IMG/VR virus record: IMGVR_UViG_3300028392_000084
Coordinates: 1-52,692 of that record
Source: a virus
Length of the DNA stretch: 52,692 bases
Direction: 5' to 3' (one strand)
Shown: piece by piece, positions 1,654 through 31,211 of the stretch
Numbering within the stretch: position 1 is the stretch's first letter
Layout of the letters: every line of letters begins with the position of its first letter
The notes under the pieces: generated by a model
Told to the model about the DNA's origin: nothing
Seen by the model: the letters and a program-made list of their open reading frames with translations, nothing else
Databases searched by the model: none
Program-made: the position numbers and the translations under genes

Positions 1654-3688
1654 CTATTCCTATTCCCATTTTGTCCATAAAATCTTGCAAATTTTGTTTT
1701 GCAAGATCTTTACTAAGAATTCCTTCATGGCTTTCATTCCAGATCTCAGGAGCTCCTAGTGGAGCCAAAATCATGTTTGCAGCGTATACTGATCCGCATA
1801 CAGCGTCAGATACGTCTTTTGCATTCATTCCAATAATGCTAGTTTCCCAAGCAGAATCGCCATGCGGATCAGGTATTGGACCATTAGTATGATCCACTTT
1901 AGGAGATCCTGTTTTGTTTCTTTTTACAATTTCTAAAGATTTTAAATTATTCTTAAAGAATATGTTTCTTCCCATCTTAAATCTCCCGGACTCTACCATA
2001 GAGTATAGGTGATAATACGGTTCAGTTGATCTGTCTACTGATAGCTTGGCAATATTAAAGCCACGACTTTCAAGATATTGAACTGATGCCTCTGATTGAA
2101 ATGTGTCATATGAGACTTGAGCAATATTCATATGACCTTTATTTCTTAAATCTTCAATAAAGAATTTTACAGCATCAAGACTTATTCTTCCTCCATCAGG
2201 AGCAATTGCAATACTGAAGTCAGTTATAAACATTATCTCACCGGTATCTGCATTCTTTTCCACATGAGTAGCTGCAATACCAGTTATGTCTCCTGTTGTA
2301 CTAGAGTCAATGTGTATTGCTCGTGGAAGATGTGGCTTATAATAGAAAGAAACTTTTAGCCCATCATTTTTAAAGAATTGAGAGTGCACTTTATTCCATA
2401 TGAGATCTTTTGGATCATCTTTGGTTGATGCAGTAATATAGGTATAAAGATTTTTTAATTTGGTTGAAAAACAGCTATCAATGCTTTCATAATTCATAAA
2501 TAAACGAGCCTGACTACCAGATGGTAGCCCAGCCAGGTCTCTTAGGGATTTTACTGGATTATTCTTAAATGAGTTTTTTAAGTCTCCAGGAACCCAAAGA
2601 ACCTGACTAACATCAAAATTATTTATTTCTGAGTCTTCTAGTATTTGAGGAGGACGCCCTGCTCCACCTCTATAGATAGGAAATAAATTATTCATGTCAT
2701 GATTTTCTGGCGACCACTCCCACATGGATCCACGTACTATCATATTGGTGTGATCTTCTTTTGCGTTACCATTTATATACTGATCAACAGCTCCGCTTAT
2801 ATCATCAGGAGACGAGTCTAGGATAACTCTTCCCCAATAATTACCTTTCATGGTACGAACCTGAACGCGGTTTCTAAGTTCCCAAAATGTATCCATGATA
2901 TAGTCGTCTGTCATTCCGGCCTCTCTAAAGTGAGAGAGCTCTGTAACTGCACCACCCACCAGATTTAGACCTAGAAGTCTGTGTAAGCTAGAAACAATTT
3001 TAATTTGAGTTCCATTGGATATGTGAATATGAGAGCTAGGAGAAGCTGTGGTCCAGAATATTTTATCTATCTGATTGTTATGAGCTTGTTCTGCTTCTCT
3101 TTTGGCCATGCCGTCTCGTGTATGAACCTTCTCATACATTGGACTATTTTCAAGAGCAAGAAGAAATGGCTCAAGTAACGTTTCTTGGACTTTTTCAATT
3201 GAAAATGATAAAAATGCTCGGGCTATTGGAGATGCAGGGTTCAAGCCTAGATATCTTTTAGCGTTTCTCATTAACGCAATATGCGTATCACAATAGAGTG
3301 ACATAAACATAGCAGCGTACGTTTTTCCCCATCCCATATGCGGGTATAGAATTAGATTGCGATAAGGCGTTGTAGGATTCATAAAATCCAAGAATGTTTG
3401 TTTTACTCGTGGATAAGTATGCTCTGCAAGTGGACCTATCCACTCTTCAGTCATAAACTCTTCAGGAGTTGGTGGTTTACGCTTATAAAAGATTTTCCAA
3501 GAATTTCCAATATAGTGAAGCTTTTTGGCCTCTGAAAGATTTTCATTATTTACCAGATAGTCTAGCGCCAGTTGAATTTTATTAAAATCAAAGTTTTTAA
3601 GCTGCTCTCTGGAAAGAGTAGACATATCTCCGGCCATGAGATCATCAAGAATCACTGAAGTATTTTGAACAATTTTAATGTCTGACAT
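1646..3688 (-). CDS. Terminase large subunit (TerL, T4 gp17-like)
   Basis: This is the packaging motor ATPase and nuclease, 680 residues. The N-terminal ATPase has a Walker A-like PHMGWGKT (residues 116-123), a strand ending in GAVTE with E250 in the catalytic glutamate position of the Walker B segment, and the arginine-rich region of a terminase fold. The C-terminal RNase H-like nuclease shows acidic residues at D461 (HIDSSTTGD), D528 (SYDTF) and in the PIPDPHGDS segment near residue 630. T4 gp17 is about 610 residues, so this version is slightly longer, mainly at the N-terminus. It lies alone on the minus strand, away from portal and capsid. A possible leaderless start is suggested by TATAAC 7 nt before the ATG with no close Shine-Dalgarno. 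Confidence 0.93.
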   Translation of the reverse strand: MSDIKIVQNTSVILDDLMAGDMSTLSREQLKNFDFNKIQLALDYLVNNENLSEAKKLHYIGNSWKIFYKRKPPTPEEFMTEEWIGPLAEHTYPRVKQTFLDFMNPTTPYRNLILYPHMGWGKTYAAMFMSLYCDTHIALMRNAKRYLGLNPASPIARAFLSFSIEKVQETLLEPFLLALENSPMYEKVHTRDGMAKREAEQAHNNQIDKIFWTTASPSSHIHISNGTQIKIVSSLHRLLGLNLVGGAVTELSHFREAGMTDDYIMDTFWELRNRVQVRTMKGNYWGRVILDSSPDDISGAVDQYINGNAKEDHTNMIVRGSMWEWSPENHDMNNLFPIYRGGAGRPPQILEDSEINNFDVSQVLWVPGDLKNSFKNNPVKSLRDLAGLPSGSQARLFMNYESIDSCFSTKLKNLYTYITASTKDDPKDLIWNKVHSQFFKNDGLKVSFYYKPHLPRAIHIDSSTTGDITGIAATHVEKNADTGEIMFITDFSIAIAPDGGRISLDAVKFFIEDLRNKGHMNIAQVSYDTFQSEASVQYLESRGFNIAKLSVDRSTEPYYHLYSMVESGRFKMGRNIFFKNNLKSLEIVKRNKTGSPKVDHTNGPIPDPHGDSAWETSIIGMNAKDVSDAVCGSVYAANMILAPLGAPEIWNESHEGILSKDLAKQNLQDFMDKMGIGIAM

Positions 3689-3730: not shown

Positions 3731-3822
3731 TTAATCAGAAAGCTGTGGAATTCAGCGCCGGCCTCCGCCGACTGTCATAAAAAGTCAGACCTGAAAAATC
3801 ACTAATCGATGTGGAGGTCGAC
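3731..3822 (+). promoter_or_regulatory. Compact cobalamin (B12) riboswitch controlling translation
   Basis: The leader carries the conserved pieces of the cobalamin riboswitch core in order: GTGGAATTC (3745-3753; family pattern GUGNAANUC) capping helix GCTG/CAGC (3742-3745/3753-3756), then CCGCCGACTGT (3765-3775; family CCCGCNACUGU), then AGTCAG-ACCTG (3783-3793; family GYCAG..ACCUG). TCAG (3735-3738) and CTGA (3791-3794) close the core. GACT/AGTC (3770-3773/3783-3786) form a short P6-like helix, so it is a reduced form lacking the large peripheral helices. Downstream, TCGA/TCGA (3806-3809/3818-3821) makes a hairpin whose loop exposes the Shine-Dalgarno GGAGG (3813-3817). That loop is complementary to CCTCC (3762-3766) in the P5 loop, as in the L5-L13 kissing switch. 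Ligand binding is therefore predicted to hide the ribosome site. Confidence 0.85.
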
Positions 3823-4404
3823 GTGCAATCATTTTTCTCTAAGCAGTCCAATGTGACTGTGGTAATATCTTTATCTCTTATTTTCCTGGCTATAGTTGCA
3901 AGGATATTTCATGTGGCAGACAACTTTTCTCCAATAGGCGCAATTGCTCTTTTTGCTGGAACAATGCTAGCAGGAAATTCACGATGGTTTATACCTTTTG
4001 CAGGTCTAGCGCTTAGCGATGTAATTCTTGCGCTAACCAATACATATGGCCTAAGTGTGTATCAATATCTTTCAGGAAGCCCAGCGGTATATTTGGCATT
4101 TTTACCAATTATTCTTTATGGCTTCATGAATAAATCTAAGAATCCATTGGTTACTCTTGCAACAATTCCTGCAGCTTCATTAACATTTTTTATCATATCT
4201 AATTTTGTGACCTGGATTAATTTAATTCCTGCATGGCCTAGCATGTACGCCATGACATGGGACGGTTTAATGCAATGCTATGTGGCAGCAATTCCTTTCT
4301 TTAAGAATACTATAATGAGTGATACTGTTTATTCAGCTGTTCTTTTTGGAGCTTATTACTTATCTTTGGTTGGAGTAAAAAAACTTACAAAAGTACAACT
4401 GTAA
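3823..4404 (+). CDS. DUF6580-family putative transporter (membrane protein)
   Basis: This 193-residue integral membrane protein has five to six hydrophobic segments. Family-like motifs are NFSPIGAIALFAG near the N-terminus, ALSDVILAL in the middle, and a long C-terminal signature with TWDGLMQCYVAAIPFFKNT and SAVLFGAYYL. From memory these are hallmarks of the DUF6580 'putative transport protein' family, whose topology resembles ECF-transporter S components. Substrate is not known from sequence; the cobalamin riboswitch upstream points to B12, a precursor or cobalt. The GTG at 3823 is chosen because GGAGGT (3813-3818) sits 5 nt upstream inside the switch hairpin. An in-frame GTG at 3811 has no ribosome site and would destroy this architecture. 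The gene stands alone between the riboswitch and a terminator. Such a gene is not a usual phage gene and is probably host-derived. Confidence 0.85.
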   Translation: MQSFFSKQSNVTVVISLSLIFLAIVARIFHVADNFSPIGAIALFAGTMLAGNSRWFIPFAGLALSDVILALTNTYGLSVYQYLSGSPAVYLAFLPIILYGFMNKSKNPLVTLATIPAASLTFFIISNFVTWINLIPAWPSMYAMTWDGLMQCYVAAIPFFKNTIMSDTVYSAVLFGAYYLSLVGVKKLTKVQL

Positions 4405-12008: not shown

Positions 12009-12650
12009 ATGGACTATTCTAAGATGACTGATCGCAGCTTAACTACACTTGCAAAGCAAGGAAATGATGAGGCAACTCATCAACTATACTTTCGTTATAA
12101 GAATTTTGTTTATAATCACTGGTCAAAGCTTCGGTTGAATCTTGAAAAGATTAACAATAAGACTTACACTAACAATCTGGCAAATCTCAAAACAGATTTT
12201 GAGAATGATTCATATGTTGCATTTATGGATGCTCTTAACTATACAAATATGGAAAAAGTTGAGAATGATAAGTGGAAGTTTCTAGGTCCTTATGGTTTCT
12301 ACTTGTCTAACCTACGCCGCACTTATCGTCGTAAAGCTCTCAAAGGAAATAAAGAAATGAGCCCAATCATGTCTTTTGGCGAAGAAGAATCTAATATGCT
12401 AGACTCTGTAAAATATGCTCATATTTCTGCAGAAGATGAATTCATTAGAAATGATGATGAGCATAAAGCTGAACTTTTTATTAAAGATCTACAAAAGCAC
12501 TTGAATAGTGAAGAATTCAAGATCTCTACGCTTAAGAAGCGCGGTTTATCTATCTCTGAAATCAAAAAAGAAATGGGAATTACCACTAATGTTTATTACA
12601 AGATCACCAATAACATTAGAGCAAAAGTTTCATCTTATATGAATTCTTAA
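12009..12650 (+). CDS. Sigma-70-family-like protein with C-terminal HTH
   Basis: This 213-residue protein begins like sigma-70 region 2: LTTLAKQGNDEATHQLYFRYKNFVY, which matches the usual 'L..GD..A...L......V' opening. A middle segment resembles region 2.3-2.4 (YGFYLSNLRRTYRRKAL, aromatic then basic). The C-terminal helix-turn-helix has LKKRGLSISEIKKEMGIT, as in region 4. It could direct host RNA polymerase to middle or late phage promoters. It is transcribed from a TTTACA/TATATT promoter, so it should be made before late genes. Its stop overlaps the stop of the convergent minus-strand gene. Together with 9484-10170 the window has two candidate sigma factors. Confidence 0.65.
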   Translation: MDYSKMTDRSLTTLAKQGNDEATHQLYFRYKNFVYNHWSKLRLNLEKINNKTYTNNLANLKTDFENDSYVAFMDALNYTNMEKVENDKWKFLGPYGFYLSNLRRTYRRKALKGNKEMSPIMSFGEEESNMLDSVKYAHISAEDEFIRNDDEHKAELFIKDLQKHLNSEEFKISTLKKRGLSISEIKKEMGITTNVYYKITNNIRAKVSSYMNS

Positions 12651-13246
12651 TGTAAGAACCAGCCAGCAGCAAAGCCTATTATCAAAGCCACTGGAACTCC
12701 CCAGAGAAGTAAATTTCTTTGGAGTTCAAGGCTTTGTGATATAGTTTTCAAACTGTTGATTGAGGTTTCCAAATTGCTGTAATTGGTTTTCAAAACTGCT
12801 ATTTGATCCTTGGAGTCTTGTAATTCCTTCGTTAATTGCACCAAGGTTTCCTTTGAGGTCTTCAACTGATCTACTAATAATTCCAATTGACTTTGCAGAG
12901 TCTTGGACAGATCGCTTAATTCCTGATTGGACTGTTGCAATATTGTCAACTGTGCTTGCAATTGCAGATAATTGCCCTGTGAGGCTGATAACGCTGTCTG
13001 AAGTTCTATTAAGCGCGTCTTGTAGTCCACTAATATTTTGTCTAACTGTAGCTTGATCGTCTTGTAACTGTTTAATAATTGTGGTAAGCTTACTGTCACT
13101 GGTTCCAGTGAGGGTGTTGTAGATGACGTCTCCTGTGTAAACAGTGAAGGAGATAGCAAACAGACCAGCAAGAGCAATAAGAACAGTTTTGATGCTTGGC
13201 TTAAATCCAAAAAAAGTAAAGCTTTTTTTCTTATCATTTTCCACAC
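12647..13246 (-). CDS. Spanin-like coiled-coil protein, frame B (signal peptide and C-terminal TM)
   Basis: From the GTG at 13246 this frame gives 199 residues: a basic N-terminus, a strongly hydrophobic leucine stretch of signal-peptide type (LFLLLLLVCLLSPS), about 125 residues of leucine-heptad coiled coil, and a C-terminal membrane span (LLLWGVPVALIIGFAAGW). That order resembles unimolecular spanins (outer-membrane or signal anchor plus C-terminal TM); the LLVC box is a poor lipobox. The frame stays open about 80 nt past the stop of the overlapping frame and ends exactly at the convergent gene, which argues it is real. AGGA (13255-13252) is 5 nt before this GTG. A later ATG at 13237 is possible. 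It sits next to the transglycosylase gene, as lysis genes do. Confidence 0.6.
   Translation of the reverse strand: MWKMIRKKALLFLDLSQASKLFLLLLLVCLLSPSLFTQETSSTTPSLEPVTVSLPQLLNSYKTIKLQLDKILVDYKTRLIELQTALSASQGNYLQLQAQLTILQQSNQELSDLSKTLQSQLELLVDQLKTSKETLVQLTKELQDSKDQIAVLKTNYSNLETSINSLKTISQSLELQRNLLLWGVPVALIIGFAAGWFLH
12726..13244 (-). CDS. Spanin-like coiled-coil protein, frame A (N-terminal TM), nested
   Basis: From the GTG at 13244 this frame gives 172 residues: a charged N-terminus (ENDKKKS), one N-terminal membrane span (TVLIALAGLFAISFTV), and a long periplasm-type coiled coil with I/V/L heptads, S/D/Q-rich, ending NYITKP. This is the layout of an inner-membrane spanin (Rz type). It lies almost entirely within the gene of frame B but in another frame, as Rz1 lies in Rz. 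Its GTG overlaps the GTG of frame B (GTGTG) and uses the same AGGA at 7 nt. Codon use looks normal in this frame, so this is the safer of the two if only one is real. Confidence 0.65.
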   Translation of the reverse strand: MENDKKKSFTFFGFKPSIKTVLIALAGLFAISFTVYTGDVIYNTLTGTSDSKLTTIIKQLQDDQATVRQNISGLQDALNRTSDSVISLTGQLSAIASTVDNIATVQSGIKRSVQDSAKSIGIISRSVEDLKGNLGAINEGITRLQGSNSSFENQLQQFGNLNQQFENYITKP

Positions 13247-13271
13247 CAGTTTCCTCACATATAGAAGCCAA

Positions 13272-13710: not shown

Positions 13711-14283
13711 ATGAAGAATTTTATTATTGGTTTTGCTATTTTATTTGGCGCTATTATTTTTTTATTTGGAGCTACAACCCAGTCTATCACAAAAGAACAG
13801 CACGTTGACCTAAGAAAAGCAGACATTTCAGTTATAAGAGGTGTTGTAAATAACTCTTTAAAAGAGACTCAATACCTATATAAGAGTTCTTACACTGCCA
13901 TGATTTTTGAAAAAGCAAAAGAATACAACGTTCCTGTTCATCTTGCTCTTGCTCTTATTGACACAGAGTCTGGTTTTGATCCACAAGCAACCAACATTAA
14001 TAAAAATGGAACAATAGATGTAGGGTTAATGCAACTGAATAGCTCAACATTTCATACTCACACAATAAAACAATTATTTAATCCAGAGACAAATGTATCC
14101 TTAGGGCTAAGATATTTACGAGATATGTATGATCGCTTGGGATCTTGGGAAGACGCCATTATGGCTTATAATGCTGGGCCCTATCGTGTAGAACAGGGCG
14201 CAGCACCAGACAGAACAATTGCTTACATGTATAAAATCATGCAAGAAGAACGAGATTTAAATTCTGCGTTCTTGGGCATATGA
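13711..14283 (+). CDS. Lytic transglycosylase (SLT type), membrane-anchored
   Basis: This 190-residue protein has an N-terminal hydrophobic segment (residues 3-22) usable as a signal or signal-anchor. An SLT/GEWL-type domain follows, cleaving the MurNAc-GlcNAc bond of peptidoglycan. Catalytic E86 is in LIDTESGFDPQAT, then GLMQLN (105-110), NVSLGLRYL and the AYNAGP motif (152-157). It is probably the endolysin, or a virion/tail lysin, exported by its own signal. The uncleaved-anchor look would fit a SAR endolysin, though the segment is not especially G/A-rich. No clear Shine-Dalgarno precedes the ATG. Its stop overlaps the start of the next gene (ATGA). Confidence 0.88.
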   Translation: MKNFIIGFAILFGAIIFLFGATTQSITKEQHVDLRKADISVIRGVVNNSLKETQYLYKSSYTAMIFEKAKEYNVPVHLALALIDTESGFDPQATNINKNGTIDVGLMQLNSSTFHTHTIKQLFNPETNVSLGLRYLRDMYDRLGSWEDAIMAYNAGPYRVEQGAAPDRTIAYMYKIMQEERDLNSAFLGI

Positions 14284-14708
14284 AAGAGAGTGACTTAAAT
14301 AAAGTAATAGGTGATAGTCTTGATTGGTATTATAAGATAAGCGATTTGGATGCGTCTTTAGGAGTAGCCGCTGCAAAAAAACCGTTTGATGGATTTGGAG
14401 CTTCCAAAGGATTTCCTGTTTATTGGGAAGGAAAGTATTTACATAAAGTAGAGGCATTTAACTTTGCTGATCTTAAGCAGCATCAGATTGATAATCTTAT
14501 AGCTTTAAAAAAAGAAATACCTTATGCAAAATGCTTATTCATAATAGGAATTCAATGGGCGCCAAGAGAGCTAAGAGCATATGTATTTGAAAATCTGCAA
14601 GAGATTGAAAAAAGAAAAGAAGAAAAGCGATCTATTTACGCAGAAGAGTTTCGTAAACTAGATAACTACGTAGTAAAAAAAGATGGTATATTCCCGTTTG
14701 ATTTCTAG
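14280..14708 (+). CDS. RecU-like Holliday junction resolvase
   Basis: This 142-residue protein has the compact PD-(D/E)XK layout of the RecU family: D37 in KPFDGFG, E50-G-K52 in VYWEGKYL, and AFNFADLKQHQIDNL, where HQ is a RecU hallmark. It would cleave branched recombination or replication intermediates, and in T4 an analogous activity (endonuclease VII) clears branches before packaging. Its ATG overlaps the previous stop, so it is translated with the transglycosylase. The C-terminal 35 residues are very basic and acidic-helical, suitable for DNA contact. Confidence 0.8.
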   Translation: MKESDLNKVIGDSLDWYYKISDLDASLGVAAAKKPFDGFGASKGFPVYWEGKYLHKVEAFNFADLKQHQIDNLIALKKEIPYAKCLFIIGIQWAPRELRAYVFENLQEIEKRKEEKRSIYAEEFRKLDNYVVKKDGIFPFDF

Positions 14709-15020: not shown

Positions 15021-17168
15021 ATGAGTGATATAAATGATGGACAATTACAGTCAAAAATAGCTCGAAGAGGATTCTGGAAATCGGTTGCAGCACTTGTTGG
15101 TGGCTTTATACCCGGTGATAAAAAATCCAATTCGACCATAAGATCTAAGAATACCAATATTGAATTTGTAAAGATGCGAGAACCCAATAAGTTTGAAGAT
15201 CTTTTAAATCAAAGTAATATCTTACGTGGAAATGGTTCTGAGAGACTTGAAAAGCTTTTTGATGCTTACCTAAGTGATGTTACTGACCTGAGTTATCAGG
15301 ACAGAATGAAGCTGGTTTCAGAGATTGATTTCATGGCTCAAACAGATCCGTTTATCTCCAGATACCTAAATCTTCAAGCTGATGAAGCCACGCAATTGGA
15401 CGTTCAAGACAATATTATTTCAGTTGAAGCGCCAGACACTCGTCTTACAAATCGTATTTATTCATTATTTAGACAATGGGGACTTACTCAAAATAGAATA
15501 AGATCCACTATTTTCTCTATTGCCAAATATGGCGATGCTTTCTGGGGCCAAAAAGTTTCAGAAAAAGGCGTGGAAAAGATTTTTCCACTATCAGTAAAAC
15601 AAATCTTATCGCGTCTTGAATTTAATCCAGTTAATGTAATGAGCTCTCTTAATGAGCTAAGGGGATACTCCAATCTCTTAGCCAAAGATGCTCAAATTCA
15701 AATGATGATTGCCAATCTTCAAGGAGAAGAGGGAGATGGAAGTAATGTTACTGACATCTTTGACACCAAGCTTTTTGGTTTCACTCTTTATGAAGATCTG
15801 GTTGTTCCGCCTTGGGAGATTACTCACTTCAGAATTAATGCTGAAGGATCTGAAATGTTTCCTTATGGCCGCACAGATCTAATAGATTGTTTAATTCCTT
15901 TTAAACTATCTCAGTCCACTCAAACCTTACAAGCTCTTGCCAGAACCATGAGCTTTCCAGTGCACGTTTATAGTATAAAGACCACTCCAGGTATGGATGA
16001 AGTATCACAGTTTCAGGTGGTTGAAAAAGTACGACAAGAGTATGAGAATGTTGGTGTAACACCTGCTTCAGGTCAATCAGAAGTGTACTCTGTTAATACC
16101 AAGATGTGGATTCCTGAAGGTCTCGTTGATTTGGATATTCACAAGCCAGAGGTTGACATTGACTTTGTTGAAGACCTTGAGATGTATTTTGATCGTGTTC
16201 TTATTGCAACCGGTATGCCAAAAGGTTATGTTGATCAAGAGTTTGGTGGATTTGGAAACAGCGCCATCTCTCTTATGGAGCAATATAAACCATTTGCCAG
16301 AAAGATTTACACACTTCAATCCTCATTTTTGGATGGACTTGAATCTCTGGTTCGTCTTCATTTTGCTCTTACTGGCGAGTTTGACTACAAGACTCCATTC
16401 ACTCTTTCAATGCGTTTTCCTGCAGAAGAGATGTCTGATGATAGAACAAATATACGTAACAATTCATTGGACTTGGTTTCAGGAATTATTGATGCTCTTA
16501 AACTTGCTCTTGGAACCTCTGAGGAAGAAGAGCTGCCTCCTGCAGTTATTAAAGATATTTTAAGTAAATATAGTTTCCTATCTCCAGAAGATATTGCAAA
16601 ATGGACAAATGATGCCAACATTTATTGGACTTCAGCTATTGGAAAAATGAAATCTGGAGATGGTGAAGAAAGTGGTGGTTCAGATCTTGGTGCAGATTTA
16701 GGTGGCGGTGGCGGTGGCGGTGGAACCACACCTCCAGAAGAAGAAACTGAAACACCAGAAGAAGAGACTCCTGCTCCAGACGTTGAAAATGATTTTGATT
16801 TTGGTGAAGGATTACAAAGTAAATCACGAGCCAATGTCCTTAGAGAGCTACACGCCAAACGATTTAAAGAATTAAGCAAGCGTTATACTGAAACCAAGAG
16901 TCAAATCTATATTAATTCTTTGGTAGAAAATAACATCATGGAGTTCACAAAAAACAAGAAACATGTTAAGCTAATGAATTATGTAGAAAATTCCTCTTCA
17001 CATTTCCTTGAAGTACTTGCAAGCAGCAAGGGTACTCAGCTTGGCTCTAGAAGAATTAAAGAAACAAAAACCACACTAACAGATCATATTAATCAATCAA
17101 GAAAAGAATTTAATGACGGAAAAGAAGACTTGCTATCAGAAGTGATGAAAAGTAAAGAAATTGATTAA
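15021..17168 (+). CDS. Portal protein (T4 gp20-like)
   Basis: This 715-residue protein forms the dodecameric DNA channel at the capsid vertex. Recognisable portal features are the central block with ATGMPKGYVDQEFGGFGNSAISLMEQYKPFARKI (about residues 395-428), the preceding wing and stem segments, and the DDRTNIRNN-type helix. It is longer than T4 gp20 (524) because of a C-terminal extension: a Gly-rich run and an acidic Pro/Glu/Thr-rich linker (about 545-595), then a basic helical tail of about 110 residues. The extension could contact the core or terminase. It is the first gene of the portal, protease-scaffold, internal protein, capsid series. Confidence 0.92.
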   Translation: MSDINDGQLQSKIARRGFWKSVAALVGGFIPGDKKSNSTIRSKNTNIEFVKMREPNKFEDLLNQSNILRGNGSERLEKLFDAYLSDVTDLSYQDRMKLVSEIDFMAQTDPFISRYLNLQADEATQLDVQDNIISVEAPDTRLTNRIYSLFRQWGLTQNRIRSTIFSIAKYGDAFWGQKVSEKGVEKIFPLSVKQILSRLEFNPVNVMSSLNELRGYSNLLAKDAQIQMMIANLQGEEGDGSNVTDIFDTKLFGFTLYEDLVVPPWEITHFRINAEGSEMFPYGRTDLIDCLIPFKLSQSTQTLQALARTMSFPVHVYSIKTTPGMDEVSQFQVVEKVRQEYENVGVTPASGQSEVYSVNTKMWIPEGLVDLDIHKPEVDIDFVEDLEMYFDRVLIATGMPKGYVDQEFGGFGNSAISLMEQYKPFARKIYTLQSSFLDGLESLVRLHFALTGEFDYKTPFTLSMRFPAEEMSDDRTNIRNNSLDLVSGIIDALKLALGTSEEEELPPAVIKDILSKYSFLSPEDIAKWTNDANIYWTSAIGKMKSGDGEESGGSDLGADLGGGGGGGGTTPPEEETETPEEETPAPDVENDFDFGEGLQSKSRANVLRELHAKRFKELSKRYTETKSQIYINSLVENNIMEFTKNKKHVKLMNYVENSSSHFLEVLASSKGTQLGSRRIKETKTTLTDHINQSRKEFNDGKEDLLSEVMKSKEID

Positions 17169-17173
17169 TCTAT

Positions 17174-17182
17174 TACTAATTA
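17174..17182 (+). promoter_or_regulatory. Late-promoter-like motif
   Basis: TACTAATTA lies 20 nt before the protease-scaffold ATG and just after the portal stop. Here a Shine-Dalgarno (AAAGGA) is also present. Confidence 0.5.
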
Positions 17183-17202
17183 ATAGTTAAAGGATATAGA
17201 GA

Positions 17203-18951
17203 ATGATCAAGCTAGTAGAAAGTTTTAGTATGACCACCGATCTTCAAAAACAGATTAGAAAAGTTGAAGATCCAGCATTACGTGAATCTCTTTTAAATCA
17301 TTATAATGGTAATAAGTTGACTGAGGGCGCTTCATTAACCGAGGGTGTAACTCTTTGGGAAATGCCTGTTTCACGTTATGATACAACAAATGCTAATGGA
17401 AGAATTTATGAGAAAGCTCTTTGGGAGAGAGTTATTTCCGAACAAAGACATATTTGGGAAGGGGGACTGGGCCTCGCAGACCACCCAAGTAACGATAGTG
17501 ATGGCAACTTTAAAGAAGCGGCTGTTGTGTGGCTAGACCTCAAACTTGATGAAAATCAAGTGGTTTGGGGTACATGCGCATTCGTAGGAAATTATGGTAC
17601 TCTTGCCGAGGACATTATCCGCAAGGGTGGGAGAGTAGGATTCTCTTCATCAGGTCTTGGTGACCTGCTTGAGGGTGGACGAGTTGACCCAAAAACCTAT
17701 CTCATTGAAAGAATTGCAGACATTGTGCTTAATCCTTCACAAAACGTGTTTGGTACAGCAAGTAATAAGCGGGAATCGGTAAGTTCAAATACTGGCCGTC
17801 AACAGACAGAGTCTGTTGAAACAAACCTTCCAGATAAGGGGAACATCAGAATGTCAGAGAGCGTAACCATCTCTAAGTTAGAAGAAAAGCGTTTTAGAAA
17901 GGACATTGAAACTTTCCTAAATGACGCTGAAAAGATCTCAGATCCACAAAAGAAGCTTGCCGAAATGGAAGATCTTCTTTCCATGTTTAATAATGGAGCA
18001 GCTCCTGAACTAAGAGAGGCTGTAGAGAAGAAAATTGAAGGTCAGAAAGCCAAGATTTCTTCAATGCTCTCAGAAGCTGGACAAGTAGAAAAAGACTTTG
18101 GAGTTGAAAATACTCAAAAGCTCAAAGAAGGAGTTTCTCTCCTGGCCGCTGAAGTTCAAGTTGCTGCTCAAGAAGCCAAAGATTGGGAAAAGATTGCCAA
18201 TGTGCTCTCAGAGTCACTTAAGAAAGCCAAGGCCAAGCTTGCAACCACTCCTTCAGCCAATTACGCTGCCTCACTAGCCGACAAGATTCAATATCTTCAA
18301 GGCGCTCTTAAAGAACGAGACAAGCAAGTTTCCACTCTTAAAGAAAGATCACACAAGATTCTTTCAAATGGCGCTTCAAAGCTAACTGAAGCCTCAGAAC
18401 AACATGATAGCATTTCCACTCAGCTTGAAGAAGCCAATGCGCATGTTACCAGACTAGAGAAGAGAAACAAGATTCTTTCAGACATGGTTGTTTCACGTAA
18501 TGCCGCAATTAAAGAAATGAAAGCTATGTTTAACAAGAAGATTGATGAAGTAAAAGTTGAGAAGAAAGCTCCACTGGTTCCTACCGCCAAGGAAAGACTT
18601 GGTGAGATCTTGAACATTAATGAGAAATCAGACGTTGAATCCTATTGGACTGACCTAATTTCACGTCACGGCAGCTCAATTCTTCCTTACAAAGAAAGAA
18701 TTCTTCGTTGCAGAACCATGAAAGAAGCTCAAGGCGTATATCTTAAGGTTCTTCCTTCACTCAATGAGGGCGCTGACTACTATGCCAGCCTAGGTGTTCC
18801 TGGTGGATCTGGCATTGGTATTAATGAAAGAGCTGCTCTACAAGAGAGCGTTGGTTTCGTAAAAGACATCAGTCCTGTTCTTTCAAGATTTCAAGAGCAA
18901 ATTGATGTTGAAGCAAGCGACCGTTCATGGTCTTCAAAGCACAAGAAGTAA
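17203..18951 (+). CDS. Prohead protease fused to scaffold (gp21-gp22-like)
   Basis: This 582-residue protein has an N-terminal U9/U35-type prohead protease (about residues 40-190): His94 in LADHPS, the Ser motif GRVGFSSSGLG (144-152), and the strand-rich core with ERIADIVLNPS. Two likely self-processing sites, LTE|G, lie at residues 39-42 and 45-48. A Ser/Thr/Gln linker (190-212) leads to a long charged coiled coil (about 220-450), typical of scaffolds, with more consensus sites (KLTE|A, SLNE|G). In T4 these are two genes; here they are one frame. M217 may be an internal start for scaffold alone. AAAGGA precedes the first ATG. Confidence 0.88.
   Translation: MIKLVESFSMTTDLQKQIRKVEDPALRESLLNHYNGNKLTEGASLTEGVTLWEMPVSRYDTTNANGRIYEKALWERVISEQRHIWEGGLGLADHPSNDSDGNFKEAAVVWLDLKLDENQVVWGTCAFVGNYGTLAEDIIRKGGRVGFSSSGLGDLLEGGRVDPKTYLIERIADIVLNPSQNVFGTASNKRESVSSNTGRQQTESVETNLPDKGNIRMSESVTISKLEEKRFRKDIETFLNDAEKISDPQKKLAEMEDLLSMFNNGAAPELREAVEKKIEGQKAKISSMLSEAGQVEKDFGVENTQKLKEGVSLLAAEVQVAAQEAKDWEKIANVLSESLKKAKAKLATTPSANYAASLADKIQYLQGALKERDKQVSTLKERSHKILSNGASKLTEASEQHDSISTQLEEANAHVTRLEKRNKILSDMVVSRNAAIKEMKAMFNKKIDEVKVEKKAPLVPTAKERLGEILNINEKSDVESYWTDLISRHGSSILPYKERILRCRTMKEAQGVYLKVLPSLNEGADYYASLGVPGGSGIGINERAALQESVGFVKDISPVLSRFQEQIDVEASDRSWSSKHKK
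17836..17853 (+). promoter_or_regulatory. Internal ribosome site for a separate scaffold product
   Basis: AAGGGGA (17836-17842) lies 8 nt before an in-frame ATG (17851, residue 217), exactly between protease and coiled-coil parts. It would yield a 366-residue scaffold, as lambda C/Nu3 does. Confidence 0.45.
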
Positions 18952-30114: not shown

Positions 30115-30137
30115 CTCACTATCCTCAGGAGGGATTA

Positions 30138-31211
30138 ATGAACTCATTTATAAAAATGCTACTTCTATCTTCGGTAGCACTTGCTCTATTTTCTTGTACT
30201 CCCAGTGAAGTGGCGTCAACTGGACCACGCGTGGCCTTTGTGTATATTGGACCACCAGGTGACGGTGGCTGGACCTATCAACACGACGAAGGTCGTAAGT
30301 ATATGGAAGGAAAGCTTGGAATTAAGGCAGACACGGTTGAAAATGTTCCAGAGGGGTCTGATGCTGAACGTGTAATTGCAGACCTGGCCACCAATCATGA
30401 TGTGGTGTTTACCACCAGTTTTGGTTACATGGATCCAACAGTCAATGTTGCCGCCAAGAATCCCAAAGTGGTTTTCTTGCATGCTACCGGATACAAGTCA
30501 ACAGAGAATCTGGGAACCTATACCGGTAAGAACTGGGAAGCAAGTTATCTAGCAGGTATTGCGGCTGGAAGTGTTACCAAGAAGAATGTTCTAGGATATG
30601 TGGGTGCATACCCAATTCCAGAAGTGATTGCCAACGTCAATGCATTTACTCTGGGCGCGCAAAGTGTAAATCCCAAGGTAAAAGTTCTTGTGGTCTGGAG
30701 TAACACCTGGTTTGATCCAAGCACTGAAAAGCAAGCTGCTAATTCGCTGCTAGACAAGGGTGCTGACGTGCTTCTTGCCTATCAGGACAGTCCAGCCTCT
30801 GTGCTAGCCGCTAAGGAACGTGGGCTATTTGCTGGTGGAAACGATAGTGACATGAATCGCTATGCTCCAGATACCTATCTAACCAACGCAGTCTGGAACT
30901 GGGGTCCATATTACACACGAGTGGTAACTGCCGTTCGTGATAAGACCTGGAAGAGTGAACAGTATGTGGGTTCCATGGCAGATGGTCTTGTAAACCTGGC
31001 ACCACTTGGTAAGAATGTTCCTCAATCTGTTAAGGATGCAGTAGCCAAGGTACACGATTCTCTGGAACAAGGAACTTTTGATCCTTACACCGGTCCACTT
31101 ACTGATCAAGACGGAAAGGTACGAGTACCCGCAGGTTCAGTTCTACCACTTAACAATATTCTTTCAATTAACTGGTTTGTAAAGGGCGTTGAGGGAACCA
31201 TTCCCAAGTAA
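30138..31211 (+). CDS. BMP/PnrA-family substrate-binding lipoprotein
   Basis: This 357-residue protein has a lipoprotein signal peptide (MNSFIKMLLLSSVALALFSC, Cys20 as the lipidated residue), followed by the BMP (basic membrane protein/Med) fold. Signatures are VAFVYIGPPGDGGWTYQHDEG, the NWEASYLAGIAAG loop, VLGYVGAYPIPEV, and KGADVLLAYQDSPA. In bacteria such proteins (for example Treponema PnrA) bind purine nucleosides and pass them to an ABC importer; no permease or ATPase is present here, so host partners would be needed. The start at ATG 30138 has a CAGGAGG site. Base composition is visibly more GC-rich than the flanks, suggesting transfer from a bacterium. It is flanked by a terminator and a long hairpin, so it is an independent cargo unit. 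Confidence 0.9.
   Translation: MNSFIKMLLLSSVALALFSCTPSEVASTGPRVAFVYIGPPGDGGWTYQHDEGRKYMEGKLGIKADTVENVPEGSDAERVIADLATNHDVVFTTSFGYMDPTVNVAAKNPKVVFLHATGYKSTENLGTYTGKNWEASYLAGIAAGSVTKKNVLGYVGAYPIPEVIANVNAFTLGAQSVNPKVKVLVVWSNTWFDPSTEKQAANSLLDKGADVLLAYQDSPASVLAAKERGLFAGGNDSDMNRYAPDTYLTNAVWNWGPYYTRVVTAVRDKTWKSEQYVGSMADGLVNLAPLGKNVPQSVKDAVAKVHDSLEQGTFDPYTGPLTDQDGKVRVPAGSVLPLNNILSINWFVKGVEGTIPK

Follow-up and report, generated by a model that had tools for sequence, protein, structure and literature searches.

Two distinct membrane-anchored coiled-coil proteins are encoded in overlapping reading frames of one ~510-base stretch of a viral window (the whole 52,692-nucleotide sequence analysed). On the evidence of sequence comparison, this is an old pair of overlapping genes, found in Spirochaetota and in their phages, with both frames under selection. 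In the window, frames A and B are both open and the pair is real. Frame A (12647..13246, minus strand) yields 199 residues from a GTG at 13246, or 196 from an alternative ATG at 13237, ends in a TAA at 12649-12647 and has a counterpart frame in 15 further loci, and frame B (12726..13244, minus strand) yields 172 residues from a GTG at 13244 to a TGA at 12728-12726. The starts are fused as GTGTG (13242..13246, minus strand; 13246-13244 for A and 13244-13242 for B) behind a common Shine-Dalgarno-like GAGGA (13252..13256, minus strand), spaced 5 nt from the GTG of A and 7 nt from that of B, the minus strand reading GAGGA-AACTG-GTGTGG. The original prediction of a minus-strand Shine-Dalgarno (13256-13252) followed by a fused GTGTG (13246-13242), with the first GTG opening a 199-residue and the second a 172-residue frame, was therefore correct, but it exchanged the frames in stating that B continues past A with a TM segment: frame A runs 79 nt beyond the stop of B, with a clean TM segment there (LLLWGVPVALIIGFAAGWFLH), and its 3' end overlaps the stop of a convergent sigma-like gene (12009..12650, plus strand) by 4 nt.

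Topology was assigned by hydropathy and inspection, signal peptides being predicted in the same way. The DNA at ~13130-13190 encodes at once an N-terminal hydrophobic segment of A, a predicted signal peptide (KLFLLLLLVCLLSPSLF; 13136..13189, minus strand), and the N-terminal TM of B (TVLIALAGLFAISFTVYTG; 13131..13187, minus strand). Both proteins continue into predicted periplasmic coiled coils, a Leu-heptad coil in A (12713..13087, minus strand) and an Ile/Val/Leu coil in B (12735..13097, minus strand), neither containing Cys, and A ends in a C-terminal TM (LLLWGVPVALIIGFAAGWFL; 12653..12712, minus strand) lying beyond the end of B. Hydrophobic residues recur with a period of 3.50 in A and in B (p<0.0005), which bears out the TM and heptad features originally claimed for both frames. 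AlphaFold models A as a helix at residues 4-31, a disordered linker and one continuous helix at 51-195 (mean pLDDT 79, and >90 along most of the long helix), and B as a TM helix followed by a helix at 50-170 (mean pLDDT 67). To our knowledge, few protein-protein overlaps are as dense as this one, in which two coiled coils follow one heptad register.

Recurrence in phages and Spirochaetota

Relatives were sought by neighbours, by profiles and by a scan for same-strand overlapping ORFs both carrying a TM, in which no homology was used and which covered ~3.5 Mb of related phage contigs with overlapping loci. The contigs are fragmentary. At least four more phages, all divergent (L007, L039, L133 and L143), have the same overlapping pair, and in the five phages the overlap amounts to 79-100% of both genes. 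A profile search picked up L039 (in G004); the scan, artefacts aside, yielded nothing beyond the pairs already known and two additions, L133 (G022) and L143 (G021). Multi-TM overlapping ORFs in L054, L057 and L162 were discounted as antisense or low-complexity artefacts, together with poor pairs in L122 and L197. In L007 the portal is 69% identical to that of the window and the pair is diverged (A 32%, B 29% identical), lying at the same site, from the sigma-like gene to the SLT side, on the opposite strand; in L143 it comes after clamp-like and sigma-like genes, the latter corresponding by position to the sigma-like neighbour shared by the window and L007. The pair in the window (12647-13258) is inverted relative to its neighbours when compared with L007 (5576-6200) and L143, a sign that the cassette was inverted locally. 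In G003 the sigma and clamp neighbours occur with no pair adjoining them. Close copies are nearly uninformative: L001 is identical to the window across the pair, and L002/L003 carry 6 substitutions within it, though 5/6 are synonymous in one frame or the other.

Searches by sequence returned little: tblastn of A and B against 50,697 phage records gave no match beyond marginal ones (E 0.1-0.9), a contig search of genomes with the portal gave none, and PHROG and Pfam profiles gave only cross-matches to assorted coiled coils, none above the coiled-coil background. Homology of the coils beyond close groups is judged by architecture, phase and context and not by sequence alone. A B-like protein without an overlapping A in G017 (L096, 1363-1998, minus strand), whose weak homology rests on coil sequence, was not used as a relative; next to it, a divergent 88-residue protein (2051-2317, plus strand) has a C-terminal TM resembling that of A. 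Other observations on these contigs concern the major capsid protein, whose homology is split between two ORFs 1.3-3.3 kb apart in G004 (14006-14350 and 15661-16806) and likewise in G016 (12780-13049 and 16388-17440), which may reflect an intron or some other insert in this gene.

The window carries two possible or unusual cargo genes, one for a 197-residue multi-TM protein with no PHROG match (3811-4404) and one for a phage-borne BMP-family (PnrA-like) lipoprotein (30129-31208) that offers a clue to the host. The best genome match of the latter, at 68% over residues 2-360, is in a Spirochaetes MAG and is followed mostly by matches in Paenibacillaceae, and the inferred host of the phage is probably a spirochaete. 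Because of this best match, Spirochaetota genomes were searched, and profiles of A identified at least 11 with an overlapping pair, a lower bound since only ~30 loci were listed for 393 genomes. In 16/16 pairs (5 phages and 11 Spirochaetota), A is the +1 frame of B and comprises a signal peptide, a coil and a C-terminal hydrophobic segment or TM, which in most members falls outside B; by inspection, several A relatives have signal-peptidase-I-type sites (AWAQ, LSAQ, VYSQ). In each checked A-type gene picked by A alone, frame B runs without a stop for 114-176 codons; the remaining alternative frame is broken, its longest open run being 17-81 codons.

In most pairs both starts use one Shine-Dalgarno. 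Fused RTGTG occurs as GTGTG in the window and as ATGTG in L321 and L318 (both with AGGAG) and L330, and nearly fused starts occur as ATGGAATG in L143, ATGAATG in L331 and TTGATTG in L326, whereas in L133 the start of A lies 124 nt into B and has an AAGGA to itself. The fused start proposed for the window thus returns in distant relatives (L318, L321, L330) and is a recurring design, if not a universal one.

Two of the spirochaete pairs, L317 and L318, are chromosomal, with no phage genes around them; the L318 pair follows a VanY carboxypeptidase gene that about half of the searched spirochaete genomes contain. The A protein of L318 is TP0222 of Treponema pallidum, annotated as hypothetical, the published coordinate 228259 and residue E46 both matching (PMC10013896). 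We found no mention of a B frame overlapping TP0222 for Treponema pallidum.

Chance and selection in the two frames

Could only one frame be a gene, the other being an accidentally open +1 or +2 frame, rich in Leu or kept open through codon bias? Such frames do arise by chance in the window, where four genes have Leu-rich open +1 frames of 110-145 residues and a +1 frame is open for 167 codons once elsewhere, within the portal gene, so that the window by itself is only suggestive and no proof. The Leu content of A is likewise no higher than expected (0.21, as against 0.20 for resampled B), and Leu-richness was rejected as evidence. Nevertheless, this explanation is very improbable. The recurrence of the pair in 15 other loci places it beyond doubt, the 16 independent pairs agreeing in phase and in the topologies of both products, and in most members the C-terminal TM of A is encoded outside B. 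Resampling argues in the same direction. As a null we used exact dynamic programming over synonymous codings, with one frame fixed and codons resampled, and obtained for the window a probability of 1.5e-6 for A being open given B and of 4.8e-10 for B given A. Across the five phages an accidental second frame has a probability of 1.6e-5 to 5e-10 in each, with summed log10 P of -36.7 (A given B) and -41.1 (B given A). The nulls for individual spirochaete loci, which rest on small codon samples and include some GC-rich loci, are weaker (6e-2 to 1e-5 for A given B; 3e-3 to 4e-11 for B given A). The heptad power of A in the window is 2.38, compared with a mean of 0.55 for the +1 frame of resampled B, and heptad strength is above this null in the window, L007 and L143 and not in L133, which argues that the coil of A is not merely a by-product of the coil of B.

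Selection on both frames is also visible between related prophages. Between L321 and L322, a C39-like neighbour has 26/27/82 differences at codon positions 1/2/3, as against 54/50/60 in B (p=5e-5 against this neighbour) and 53/58/66 in A (p=6e-5 against the same neighbour). Other prophage comparisons agree, the third-position excess being lost in A and B and kept in the adjacent endolysin candidate. Between the window and L007, B agrees (p=0.013), while A is too diverged (p=0.36).

Lysis setting and comparison with known spanins

The transglycosylase gene said to lie next door is indeed present, as a gene for an SLT-domain protein with an N-terminal TM (13711..14283, plus strand; PF01464, 5.5e-27) that may be an endolysin, but it stands one gene away from the pair and on the other strand. 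An SLT protein is found near the pair in the window, L007 and G002, its place beside the pair being conserved in L007, and no holin was found near the pair in the window. The predicted lysis setting is supported more strongly in the relatives. In L321, L326 and L328, a C39-like peptidase (PF13529) and a 2-TM holin-like ORF precede the pair, and L322 has a gene order similar to that of L321; an M23 peptidase directly precedes the pair in L331, and in G004 a C39-like protein homologous to the prophage ones (8e-22) is encoded ~3 kb upstream. After the pair, L321 and L326 have a TM-plus-coil ORF and then Phage_Mu_Gp27 (PF11985, 8e-18 and 8e-22), and in L330 Gp27 also follows the pair (7e-14). The TM-plus-coil ORF of L321, which shows weak similarity to an Rz-like PHROG (7.5e-4), might be an i-spanin in its own right; DUF2730 (Mu gp25) was tested for in a 99-residue ORF downstream of the pair and was not found. 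On the Mu map, gp27 comes after the lysis genes. These are the gp22 endolysin, then the gp23/gp23.1 spanins and the gp25 releasin, a small membrane protein in the lysis cluster (PMC9239132). By gene order, the pair of the Mu-like spirochaete prophages occupies the gp23/gp23.1 spanin slot, between endolysin/holin-like genes and Mu gp27.

Like Rz/Rz1 of lambda and gp23/gp23.1 of Mu, the pair consists of overlapping frames with the partner in +1, it follows endolysin/holin-like genes in the Mu-like prophages, and B shares the i-spanin topology, a single N-terminal TM and a periplasmic domain, here a coil, being found for B in 15/16 pairs. A lysis cassette is seen in the spirochaete prophages (C39-like or M23 peptidases), and in the window as the SLT gene only. 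Spanins require an outer-membrane lipoprotein (PMC6139136), whereas the partner A has a signal peptide, a coiled coil and a C-terminal TM. No o-spanin lipobox occurs in A or B of the window, no credible lipoprotein gene was found near the pair in the window, G001, G002, G004, G021 or G022, and neither product is a predicted lipoprotein in 15/16 pairs, the exception being B of L331 (LSSC). In some B proteins the TM is followed by a Cys (WRGC, FRSC), which we rejected as a lipobox because of Arg at -2. By definition, therefore, the pair is not an Rz/Rz1-type spanin, and of the predicted spanin-type pair the spanin-like lysis setting stands and the membership does not. The predicted overlap denser than that of Rz/Rz1 is supported: surveyed embedded o-spanins mostly start at 0.4-0.5 of the i-spanin (PMC6139136), whereas in most members here the overlap sets in at the start codons or close to them.

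Lipoprotein-bearing versions may nevertheless exist, as hinted by the L331 B protein and by L224 (G024), where a lipoprotein gene abuts a single-frame A-type gene without B (1102-1476 and 680-1102, both minus strand), with a C39-like peptidase and a multi-TM ORF upstream, an arrangement in which the same lysis step may be carried out by separated genes. A also resembles the unimolecular spanin T1 gp11 in its export signal, periplasmic domain and C-terminal TM; such spanins combine an N-terminal lipoprotein signal with the C-terminal TM, whereas A has no canonical lipobox, is paired with B and is helical, the u-spanin domain having been proposed to be beta-rich. With XhlA-type hemolysin and other lysis proteins of coil plus C-terminal TM (phrog_1193) it shares that order of elements, the profile match (0.0028) being weak and at the coiled-coil background level, and A is more than twice as long, with a signal peptide and an overlapping partner.

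Proposed function and significance

We propose, with a probability of roughly 0.7, that the pair works like a spanin pair in the last, envelope-opening step of lysis, without claiming membership of the spanins. Starting from the dual coding, the predicted topology and the cassette position, we infer a complex and its mechanism as follows. A and B would both be made from one ribosome-binding site, at two starts a few bases apart. The N-terminal TM of B would keep it in the inner membrane, its coil reaching into the periplasm; A would be exported through its signal peptide and tethered at its C-terminal TM, and its coil, too, would be periplasmic. The modelled rods of about 120 and 145 residues would bundle as one complex, which, judging by gene position, would open the envelope after holin and endolysin, the job of Rz/Rz1 elsewhere. 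In most members no phage outer-membrane lipoprotein would be needed; perhaps a host outer-membrane partner takes part, or the rods collapse once the wall is cut. A 21-nt heptad period is common to both frames, NTT codons (Ile/Val) of B placing Leu codons (TTR) in +1, which may be why A is always the +1 frame of B. We give even odds to the fuller reading, namely that the envelope-opening complex consists of two oppositely anchored inner-membrane coiled coils, encoded with near-complete overlap behind one ribosome-binding site and acting with no phage outer-membrane lipoprotein, and that Treponema pallidum has come to harbour one copy as a resident pair, TP0222 with an unannotated partner.

Two other functions were weighed. 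A holin-, antiholin- or releasin-like control of endolysin release at the inner membrane, with no opening of the outer membrane, would fit the apparent inner-membrane anchoring of both products, the small membrane protein gp25 (releasin) in the same cluster of Mu (PMC9239132) and a weak match of the A protein of L324 to a holin PHROG (2.6e-5). It seems unlikely in view of the separate 2-TM holin-like ORF before the pair in L321, L326 and L328, the further TM-plus-coil ORF that occupies the gp25 position after it, and the long (~120-145 residues), predicted periplasmic coils, which are unlike gp25 and unlike holins, small proteins of 1-3 TMs with little soluble domain. The chromosomal copies L317 and L318, the latter behind VanY and with TP0222 as its A protein, make a non-lysis envelope role possible, and the pair might be a host envelope factor for wall or outer-membrane maintenance that phages acquired, its lysis position being secondary. 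We consider this improbable, as the Spirochaetota pairs whose neighbours are informative are mostly found in Mu-like or endolysin cassettes, and both chromosomal copies could be what is left of prophages.

In the literature searched, lysis by spirochaete phages seems to have received almost no study, and the spanin-like pair proposed here is a candidate for its last step. The pair also points to a gene that has probably been missed in spirochaete genomes, the partner of TP0222 included. Lastly, our results suggest that phages in which no spanin has been found may carry non-lipoprotein pairs that are invisible to lipobox-based searches.
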